From Gloeomargaritales cyanobacterium VI4D9 (lineage in GTDB: Bacteria > Cyanobacteriota > Cyanobacteriia > Gloeomargaritales > Gloeomargaritaceae): a stretch of DNA of 64,000 bases. Positions 2,168 through 22,443 of the stretch are shown piece by piece; position 1 is the stretch's first letter; every line of letters starts with the position of its first letter. Under the pieces are notes generated by a model that saw nothing but the letters and a program-made list of their open reading frames with translations, was not told where the DNA came from and did no database searches. Made by a program: the position numbers and the translations under genes. The stretch is taken from positions 1,463,157 to 1,527,156 of the forward strand of contig OV696605.1 in NCBI GenBank assembly GCA_927797885.1, read 5' to 3'.

Positions 2168-2292
2168 TATAGCTAAGCATACAAAGGTTGACATGATATG
2201 GGTCGCTGGGCGTAGCCCCACATTGGTTTCCCATAGCGAAGCGTGGCGTAGCCATGAATCTTAAGGCGACAACCTTAACCTACATAGCTATA
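2168..2292. repeat. MITE-like element, family E copy 1
   Basis: A 125-bp element with terminal inverted repeats TATAGCTAAG at the left and a slightly diverged TAGCTATA at the right. The interior contains ACATGATATGGGTCGCTGGG and the short palindromic insert AGCGAAGCGTGGCGTAGCC. A second copy in the opposite orientation lies at 20693-20821, inside an IS1 transposase remnant. No coding capacity. The TA-bearing ends suggest mobilisation by an IS630/Tc1-type transposase, which is inference. Confidence 0.8.
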
Positions 2293-19737: not shown

Positions 19738-20376
19738 TCAGGGAGCCAGGCGGGTTTGTCGCCAGATGCCATCGGGTTGCAACGTATAGGCAATGCGGTC
19801 GTGGAGGCGGGAGGGGCGACCCTGCCAAAACTCGATGCTATGGGGACTCAGGCAATAGCCACCCCAAAAAGGCGGGCGAGGAATCTCCCGGTCAGCGTAC
19901 TCCTGTGCCAATCGGGCAAACCGTTCCTCCAGCACCGTGCGGTCGGGAATAACTTGGCTTTGGGGAGATACCCAAGCCCCCAGTTGGCTATCCCGTGGGC
20001 GTTGCCGGAAATAGGCATCGGACAATTCGGCTGGCAGTGGTGTCACCGTCCCCCGAAACCGTACCTGCCGTTCCAACGGCTCCCACCAAAACACCAGGGC
20101 GGCCTGGGAATGGTGCGCCAACTGTTGCCCCTTAGCGCTAGTCATATTCGTGAAAAACTGCAACCCCCGGGGATCAAAACCCTTGAGCAGGACAATGCGG
20201 GCATCCGGGTATCCCTGGGCATCCACCGTCGCCAAGGTCATGGCATTGGGTTCCCGAATCGGGGCGGCGCAGGCCTCAGTAAACCATTGTTGGAACTGCA
20301 CCCAGGGGTCAGGGTCAGCCGTCAGTAGAACATTTTGAGTGTAATTCAGCCGCAGGTCGGCCACATCTCGGTTCAT
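19738..20376 (-). CDS. pdxH: Pyridoxamine 5'-phosphate oxidase
   Basis: 212 residues, FMN-dependent oxidation of pyridoxine or pyridoxamine 5'-phosphate to pyridoxal phosphate. Seen: AMTLATVDAQGYPDARIVLLKG-type FMN site (PNAMTLATVDAQG, ARIVLLKGFDPRG), FFTNMTSAKGQQL, LVFWWEPLERQVRFRG, and the C-terminal RPSRLHDRIAY followed by WRQTRLAP with the conserved final Arg and Pro. I start at the ATG at 20376 (MNRDVADLRLNY), which fits family length; the TTG at 20436 adds a doubtful hydrophobic stretch. It ends 170 bases before nblA in the same direction, but a shared transcript is not evident. Confidence 0.93.
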   Translation of the reverse strand: MNRDVADLRLNYTQNVLLTADPDPWVQFQQWFTEACAAPIREPNAMTLATVDAQGYPDARIVLLKGFDPRGLQFFTNMTSAKGQQLAHHSQAALVFWWEPLERQVRFRGTVTPLPAELSDAYFRQRPRDSQLGAWVSPQSQVIPDRTVLEERFARLAQEYADREIPRPPFWGGYCLSPHSIEFWQGRPSRLHDRIAYTLQPDGIWRQTRLAP

Positions 20377-20546
20377 GGGAAACAGGACGAGCAAGAGGGT
20401 TGCCAATCGGGTTCTACGGTAATTGATCCGGAGCAATACCTACATTCTTGCAATTTTTGGGCGAACCGTAGTCTGTTGTTCCGCTTGCCCCACCCTGCCT
20501 AGGCGACAGCACGACCCAAATGCTACAGCAACCCTATCAGAGATTG

Positions 20547-21056
20547 GTAGTGCTATCCAAGTAATACTTTGTTGTAATGATGGATGAAATTGAAGATGAT
20601 ACCAATGTGATTTTCTAAGTTTTTGGAAAAAGATAAAGTTTTTCTAGCCAAGCACCCAATGCGTTGCCGCAAGGTGTTGTGTAATTGCTCAATATAGCTA
20701 AGTAGGTTAAGGTTGTCGCCTTAACTTAAGATTCATGGCTACGCCACGCAAGCTATGGGAAACCCATGTGGGGCTACGCCCAGCGACCCATATCATGTCA
20801 ACCTTTGTATGCTTAGCTATATAAGAAGCTTTCCCACTGCTCTTGGAAACTCTTCGGTGTTGTTTTGGGGGATAATCTCCGTATGTGCCTGCCAAAAGTC
20901 TGTGTAAAACTTGGCCTGGTTTCGCCCAGCTTTGGGTAACTGTCTCAATACTCCTATCCCCAGCCCTAGCCACAACCATTGTGCATTCTGTTTAGAACCC
21001 ACCAACGACCACAGCAGGTTTACGCCACGCTTCGCTAACATCGCATTTCCGCACAC
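20547..21056 (-). pseudogene. IS1-family transposase remnant, interrupted
   Basis: On the minus strand the broken frames give VGSKQNAQWLWLGLG, then RNQAKFYTDFWQAH, then SSGKASY, and after a 127-bp interruption IEQLHNTLRQRIG, CLARKTLSFSKNLENHIG and FIHHYN. These are the hallmark segments of the IS1-type DDE transposase C-terminal half. The N-terminal zinc-finger half is missing. The break is a family E element (20693-20821) inserted with TA duplication. The element end GGTAGTGCTATCCAA is at about 20547-20561; a similar solitary end lies at about 22303. Not functional. Confidence 0.85.
20693..20821 (-). repeat. MITE-like element, family E copy 2, inserted in IS1
   Basis: 129 bp from TATAGCTAAG to CTTAGCTATA, a perfect ten-base terminal inverted repeat including TA at each side. 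Removing it with one TA restores the transposase reading SSGKASY-IEQLHNTLRQR, which marks the insertion point and a TA target-site duplication. The interior is the reverse complement of the copy at 2168-2292. Confidence 0.88.
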
Positions 21057-21125
21057 CGCAGGTGCTTCTTTTACGGGGGCGGTGCCCCTGCGACCCCCTG
21101 TTTCATTCTCATTTAGGATTGCTAT
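21046..21125 (-). repeat. Family A element, truncated copy
   Basis: Right-hand part of a family A element: CACCGCAGGTGCTTCTTTTA, CGGGGGCGGTGCCCC, then CATTTAGGATTGCTATA. It is the same sub-type as the copies at 26257 and 34260, with the GCTTCTTTTACGG insertion in the core. It truncates the 5' side of the IS1 remnant. Confidence 0.7.
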
Positions 21126-21187
21126 AGAGAACCCAAAAATAATCAGAGCTTAACTTCTCTCAAATAAATCGAGATAAAAATTGGTAG

Positions 21188-22216
21188 TTACAGTCTTTTA
21201 TGCTATTATGGGATACAAACCATAGAAATGAGAGGACAAAGAGATGCCTACACATTCCTTAGATTTACGGCAAAGAATTGTAGTTGCATACCAAGCGGGA
21301 GAACAATCCGGGAAGTAGCTAAGCGGTTTATAGCGAAGCGTGGCGAAGCCATTGGTAACTAAAAGGACAGTACATCGCCTGGTACAACAGTATAAACAGA
21401 CTCAAGACTTAACACCTAAAAAAGTAGGGACAAAACGAGTTGGAATTTTAGAACAAAATCAAGTTGAGATTTTAGCCATTGTTGAAGAGTATCCAGATAA
21501 GTGTTTGTGGCAATATGTTGAGATAATCGGAGAAAGGCTAGGAAGTGAGTATTAGCACATTGCATTCTTTCTTGAAAAAGCATAAAATCACTCTAAAAAA
21601 AAGACATTCCGCAGTGAAAAAGCCAAGAGTGAAGTTGTGCAGAACGCTTAGGATACTGGCATAAGATTGGAAGCGTTCCAGCCGAAGATATAGTTGCCGT
21701 AGATGAAACAGCAACCTGGGAGGGCATGGAGAGGAAAGTTGCATGGAGTTTACAAGGGAAAAAAGTTTATAGTTATCGCCAGAAAAACAAGGGTCAGAAA
21801 TACACGTTAATCGGTGCTATATCTGTGGAGGGCGTTGTTTGTCATAAAATCATCAAAGGCTCCATGAAGAAACAGGATTTTTTAGAATTTGTGAAAACAG
21901 AATTATGCCCAAAATTAAATGAGAAGAAGGTGGTAATTATGGACAACTTGAATAGTCATAAAGCCATAGAAGTACAACAGATGATTAGCCAGACCGGTGC
22001 TCGTCTATTGTATCTCCCTGTGTATTCACCAGAATTTAATCCAATGGAAATGATGTGGTCAGTTCTAAAGAATTTTATTCGACAGTTTCATGATTCACCA
22101 GTAAAGGATATACAGTCAATTATCCAAGCATCTTTGTTATTGATTAATCCTTCTTCTTTTGCAAATTGGTTTACCAAATGTTGCTACTGTACCCCATAAT
22201 AAAGGAAAAGACTGTA
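21188..22216 (+). mobile_element. IS630-type insertion sequence (degenerate)
   Basis: Bounded by TA-CAGTCTTTTATGC at the left and GGAAAAGACTG-TA at the right. The ends continue inward as matching inverted repeats to TATTATGGGATAC and GTACCCCATAATA, about 28 bases with few mismatches. Length about 1.03 kb, normal for IS630. The transposase inside is broken, so the copy cannot move by itself, but the ends are intact. Family B elements share the terminal sequence. Confidence 0.88.
21244..22199 (+). pseudogene. IS630-type transposase, multiply frameshifted
   Basis: Begins MPTHSLDLRQRIVVAYQAGEQS at the ATG at 21244, then breaks. Bases are missing at about 21309. A 22-base insert containing AGCGAAGCGTGGCGAAGCC interrupts the REVAKRF/VTKRTVHRLV helix-turn-helix at about 21329-21352. 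Further frame changes lie between 21555 and 21726. The C-terminal open part (21726-22199) is well kept. DDE residues can be located: Asp in VAVDETATWE (just before 21726), Asp in VIMDNLNSHKA, Glu in EFNPMEMMW. The tail SSFANWFTKCCY matches IS630 transposases. It cannot make a full protein unless frameshifts are suppressed. Confidence 0.88.
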
Positions 22217-22302
22217 ATTGGCACAATACTTGCATTATTTATTATCGTACAATAACAAACATGACTGATGGTGTCGGTGGTGTTGCCCGCCTAAACAAAC
22301 TG

Positions 22303-22325
22303 GGGTAGCGCTATCCAAATCATTG
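22303..22325 (+). repeat. Possible solitary IS1 end
   Basis: GGTAGCGCTATCCAAATCAT closely resembles the end of the IS1 remnant (GGTAGTGCTATCCAAGTAAT) at about 20547 and lies in the same orientation. No transposase sequence adjoins it. Confidence 0.4.
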
Positions 22326-22340
22326 CCTATGTATTAGTAT

Positions 22341-22443
22341 TATAGAGCAATCCTAAATGAAAATGGAATAGGGGTCGCAGGGGCACCGCCCCCGTCCTTG
22401 GTTCTAGGAAATTTTTGTTGGTTAATCAAATAGGATTGCTATA
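22341..22443 (+). repeat. MITE-like element, family A, complete copy
   Basis: 103 bp, from TATAGAGCAATCCTAAATG (one or two changes from the family end) to TAGGATTGCTATA. The core GGGGTCGCAGGGGC, ACCGCCCCCGTCC, TTGGTTCTAGG is present, and the GC-rich centre can fold on itself. It lies in the gap between the IS630 copy and the gene at 22571. Confidence 0.85.

Follow-up and report, generated by a model that had tools for sequence, protein, structure and literature searches.

A short TA-flanked element with IS630-like ends interrupts an IS1 transposase gene in a Gloeomargaritales cyanobacterium

We analysed a window of 64,000 nucleotides (positions 1463157-1527156 of contig OV696605.1) from the 3.16-Mb, single-contig genome of Gloeomargaritales cyanobacterium VI4D9 (G000), in which a transposase gene of the insertion sequence (IS) family IS1 is interrupted by a short repeated element, here called E. 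Ten phycobilisome-domain matches in G000 agree with a cyanobacterial origin; of 14 control genomes, only Synechococcus elongatus had matches to this family. Together with its flanking TAs this copy of E lies at 20693-20821 (+ strand), as delimited by its sequence, by further copies in the genome and by empty sites; by IS630 convention the element proper is 20695-20819 (125 bp), and the net gain at the site is 127 bp. Its left terminal repeat, TATAGCTAAGTAGGTTAAGGTTGTC (20693-20717, +), has four matches in the window against 0.09 expected and follows a genome-wide pattern, and its right terminal repeat, TATAGCTAAGCATACAAAGGTTGAC (20797-20821, -), recognised by pattern and by end comparison, agrees at 22 of 25 bases with the right end of a candidate partner element described below; both repeats include the TA. 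The interrupted gene, on the - strand, consists of a 3' part at 20546-20692, assigned by a Pfam match and by DNA and protein comparison, with the IS1 end GGTAGTGCTATCCAAGTAAT at 20546, and of a 5' remnant with further frame damage at 20822-21015, which matches other copies as DNA until about 20944 and, beyond that, as protein by eye. A second copy of E, identified through similarity and the end pattern, is found at 2168-2292 (-).

An earlier note on this DNA had claimed that E interrupts an IS1 transposase, and that its removal with one TA rejoins the reading SSGKASY-IEQLHNTLRQR. The Pfam domain DDE_Tnp_IS1 matches the 3' side (G000 1483736-1483849, window 20580-20693) with 24.0 bits alone and 24.8 bits with its frame neighbours, which is marginal because the cut-off is 24.1; the assignment to IS1 is backed by a strong DNA match to clearer IS1 copies among the nine DDE_Tnp_IS1 matches in G000, the window copy included. 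When the window flanks were joined, six distinct IS1 copies (L055, L056, L057, L058, L059 and L061, the last a fragment only) ran through the junction without a gap and with one TA, at 81.9-84.7% identity over 203-204 bp. These six make up all ten alignment rows, since some of the places carry two locus identifiers; none has extra bases at the junction, and the remaining IS1 matches (L054 and L060) gave no alignment across it. The one copy of the six that was translated, L059, reads GSGKTSY-IERFNNTLRQR where the window has SSGKASY / IEQLHNTLRQR. The interruption of IS1 is thus borne out, and so are the boundaries that the note gave; its span, 20693-20821, takes in both TAs and had to be narrowed to the element proper, although from the bases themselves a duplicated TA and an element-borne TA are indistinguishable. 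Even without E this IS1 copy would be broken, since it also has a frame change and, near 21016-21037, an inserted dispersed repeat; E may thus have entered a gene that no longer worked.

Copies of E were collected in G000 by searching its DNA with the 129-base stretch as query, in which the best 40 of 166 first-look candidates were scored, and by a terminal-end pattern allowing up to three mismatches. The stretch has at least 50 matches in the genome; the end pattern occurs 42 times in forward and 43 times in reverse orientation, and its reversed control in neither. This yielded 32 complete copies (31 tabulated, and L013 added later) and one copy lacking one end (L021). As the note had expected of all copies, each complete copy has TA on both sides (64 of 64 ends), TA making up 4.1% of the dinucleotides in the window; the collecting pattern itself starts with TATA, which qualifies this count, and most copies were recovered by full-length similarity as well. 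The first bases are TATAGC in 31 of 32 complete copies and the last are GCTATA in all 32. Counted with their TAs, copies measure 124-129 bp if they carry an internal 21-bp module and 103-105 bp if they do not, except that L013, which has the module and an internal deletion, is 110 bp long. A simple end rule divides the copies into two subfamilies, with five of the 32 showing mixed ends, and four pairs of identical copies lie at different places. Six-frame reading of four representatives found at most about 42 codons; E is short (103-129 bp with TAs), multi-copy and without a transposase gene, as befits a miniature inverted-repeat transposable element (MITE). As a single strand it outdoes its shuffled versions in folding (z -3.09, with 0 of 200 shuffles as good), which its inverted ends would lead one to expect; an RNA family was considered for this region and found no support, there being no Rfam match in 19800-22400 up to an E-value of 0.1.

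To examine the insertion sites, the flanks of each copy were joined and aligned with related loci at a threshold of at least 80% identity and a reach of 30 bp or more on either side. Qualifying alignments exist for 13 of the 32 sites, and at 11 of these at least one relative is gapless with a single TA (L001, L003, L004, L010, L011, L014, L019, L024, L026, L027 and L080; the relative of L004 is a neighbouring repeat within the L004 locus itself). The cleanest empty site is that of L026, which is found in the sister species G003 with 100% identity over the 123 query bases matched, and 98.0% over 202 bp in the alignment of the joined flanks. In G000 this copy (552818-552922) splits a conserved gene with an alpha-amylase domain into two pieces, one on each side of E. 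A 626-residue query taken from G003 has a stop-free, full-length match in G003, G004, G001, G002 and G006 (G006 also has one further, weak match at 34%), and E has therefore had an effect on its host, cutting a gene that is uninterrupted over the searched length in the five other searched genomes of the genus. The TA target rule proposed earlier holds at 64 of 64 ends, and insertion at TA with a gain of 2 bp beyond E is seen at 11 of the 32 sites, with non-TA relatives at four examined sites.

G000 also contains a candidate for the enzyme that moves E. This is a 947-bp IS630 element at 3131275-3132221 (L031 1039-1985) with the ends TATAGTCAAGCAGGGTAAGGTCGTC and TATAGCTAAGCAGGCAAAGGTTGGC and an uninterrupted transposase of 294 residues, in which the DDE domain and the N-terminal helix-turn-helix (HTH) of the IS630 family are both recognised (NF033545 transpos_IS630, 192.5 bits against a cut-off of 100; DDE_3, 114.8; HTH_Tnp_IS630, 49.8) and which matches the transposases Sleeping Beauty (E-value 2.3e-6) and Mos1 (E-value 4e-4). 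It is among 23 DDE_3 matches in G000, and copies of its type include four with broken frames (926-928 bp, L042-L045) and one spanning 1043261-1045323 that appears interrupted, judging from end matches and split protein matches. Both E subfamilies have ends that agree with those of the partner at 17-22 of 25 positions, and E thus shares terminal repeats with an IS630 element; the ends of subfamily E1, compared with the 2,629 forward-strand 25-mers of the window that start with TA, score 7.9 on average and at most 15, leaving aside, for each end, a pair of scores (24 and 18; 25 and 19) taken as the window's own E ends. Compared with the partner, the E1 left end scores 19 of 25 against its left end and 20 of 25 against its right end, which favours neither polarity, and the copy L012 has the right end of the partner letter for letter. 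The note had attributed E to a Tc1/IS630-like transposase and not to the IS1 that it interrupts, and with L031 this predicted mover has a concrete candidate.

Beyond G000, we searched 39 genomes in all for E (E-value up to 0.001). Among the matches listed, E occurs in seven: G000, five of the six other genomes of its genus, of which G001, G005 and G006 have partial matches only, and G029, which lies outside the genus and has only a 30-base stretch. In G002 no match to E was found at this threshold among the matches listed. Apart from one 30-base match, then, E is seen among these 39 genomes only in the genus of G000. G004 has a head-to-tail pair of E-like copies with one TA in common (L064 1464-1671). 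The partner transposase has protein matches, mostly distant, in at least 30 of the 39 genomes; among the matches listed, its relative in G003 (L127, 93% over the best stretch) has ends of the same type, and that in G006 (L128, 61%) has ends starting TATAGCTAA. In a wider contig collection, from which near records may have been left out, no named relative of the partner transposase was confirmed, and three single matches to the end pattern there (in a deltaproteobacterial metagenome-assembled genome, Fulvivirga and Cellulophaga) were dismissed as chance.

We consider it highly probable that E is a non-autonomous IS630-family MITE and that a similar-ended IS630 element provides, in trans, the transposase that recognises its ends, with duplication of the TA. 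This reading builds on the copies and their ends, the one-TA empty sites, the candidate autonomous element, and a site that is filled here and empty in the sister species. Being geneless, E would depend on an IS630 transposase supplied in trans. The transposase of L031, which its sequence and ends make the candidate mover, would recognise the ends of E as being of the same kind as its own and join the element to a TA target, whereby the TA is proposed to be duplicated; the chemistry of this insertion would resemble that of the IS630 member ISY100.

Several observations weigh against such an account. For 19 of the 32 sites there is no qualifying alignment among the loci compared, and some of these loci were fetched with the joined flank sequence itself, which may bias the comparison towards single-TA matches. 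Gapless relatives without TA outnumber those with TA at L011 (33 to 1), L020 (13 to 0) and L080 (2 to 1), and at L026 there is one of each, the one without TA being in G004. A gap falls within 15 bp of the junction in 12 alignments (two at L003, one at L008, six at L011, two at L020 and one at L024). Because the gapless ones keep the spacing, we read the non-TA and gapped relatives as diverged paralogues. On the side of the partner, the left-end agreement of 19-20 of 25 is resemblance without identity, and the interiors of the two elements, compared by eye only, have nothing evident in common. In G004, finally, there are at least 44 E-like pieces, and the closest relative of the partner transposase among the matches listed is 36% identical over 155 residues, so that the mover there would be gone or a different one.

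This last point can also be taken to mean that copies of E are relics without a present mover, exchanged only by recombination between copies. The five copies that mix the ends of the two subfamilies would suit such a history, as would the single uninterrupted partner gene among the matches listed in G000; we nevertheless regard it as unlikely, since the four pairs of identical copies, whose members lie at separate sites, and the L026 site that is filled in G000 and empty and otherwise identical in G003, argue for fairly recent insertion. The idea that IS1-type transposition moved E, or that E is a variable segment of IS1, has its location in favour and deserves almost no credence: six IS1 copies are without E, the joined flanks of only one of the 32 sites (L001) aligned to an IS1 locus among the loci compared, and the gain beyond E is 2 bp, unlike the target duplication of 8-9 bp made by IS1.

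The IS630 element next to E would be a mover closer at hand. It lies at 21189-22216 (+) and is of a different type, with ends TACAGTCTTTT, a gene in pieces and a dispersed repeat at 21331-21352, as determined from domain matches and end comparison. It adjoins E, belongs to the same family, has ends that start with TA and is multi-copy, its transposase domain occurring seven times in the genome. We rejected it as the partner of E, and its mobilising E seems very improbable, since no more than 7-11 of 25 positions agree between its ends and those of E1, close to the average of 7.9 for window 25-mers that start with TA; its gene is fragmented within the window, and six of the seven copies have the same repeat-carrying stretch, which was not seen in L035. 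The seven copies of the domain score alike, and most are more than 99% identical to the window copy, the exceptions being L034, which is split, and L035, at 96%. Such near-identity despite a fragmented, repeat-carrying gene could mean that this type, too, was moved in trans.

The module nested in E is less well explained than E itself, as is its presence in the IS1 remnant and the neighbouring IS630. In the window copy of E, alignment with other copies places it at 20735-20755 (+, 21 bp), and its pattern, ATGGCTACGCCACGC..GCTA, recurs at 21016-21037, 21331-21352 and, in the second E copy, 2234-2255. The copy at 21016-21037 (+, 21-22 bp, three mismatches; three matches in the window against 0.00 expected) lies in the IS1 remnant and is absent from L059, the difference between remnant and L059 being the module and a few further bases. 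Three unrelated carriers, E, the IS1 remnant and the neighbouring IS630, thus hold it within about 620 bases, and we saw no module-free copy of this IS630. Among complete copies of E, 17 of 32 have the module and 15 lack it, always at the same place in the alignment; both states occur in both subfamilies, and recombination between copies could explain this distribution without a second insertion. With up to two mismatches allowed, one 21-base form is found 30 times in G000, twice in G003, four times in G004 and not at all in five other genomes, a count that does not cover the form with a shorter middle found in the 20693-20821 copy of E. Tentatively, the module may itself be a mobile micro-repeat that enters and rides larger mobile elements, although we hold this somewhat doubtful; it may belong with the cyanobacterial small dispersed repeats (SDR; Elhai et al. 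2008). At about 2.3, 5.3, 6.3, 16.2, 22.4, 34.5 and 52.5 kb the window has further dispersed repeats, GGGGCACCGCCCCCGTCCTTGGTTCTGG and its neighbours, and repeats of the GGGGCACCGCCCCCGTCCTTGGTTCTGG type also recur in loci around several E copies.

A literature search covering titles and abstract openings found no description of E, which is weak evidence that the element is unpublished; its kind is familiar. ISY100 of Synechocystis, a member of the IS630/Tc1/mariner group, is described as inserting almost exclusively at TA, which is duplicated, and as needing only its transposase in vitro (PMC2170065). It offers a mechanistic model for the insertion of E at TA, with the difference that ISY100 is autonomous and E is not. 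Nezha, cited by title in PMC10969869 and PMC4596501, is a cyanobacterial MITE proposed, according to PMC3049150, to be mobilised by ISNpu3-like elements, and so resembles E, by description and not by sequence, in having an IS element as its proposed mover. The same source describes RUP (repeat unit of pneumococcus), of about 107 bp, with ends similar to those of IS630-Spn1 of the same genome and a proposed preference for inserting into or near IS elements (PMC3049150). E is similar in plan, again by description and not by sequence, being short, with IS630-like ends and here inside an IS; it differs in that RUP belongs to another phylum and that E has an optional nested repeat of 21 bp. Having ends like those of a full-size IS630 in the same genome, E is a well-delimited, ordinary IS630-type passenger transposon of the kind already represented by RUP and Nezha. 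What the E system adds is exact boundaries, a candidate partner, a TA rule at many sites and an empty site in a sister genome, which together make mobilisation in trans by a bacterial IS630 transposase testable with defined DNA.
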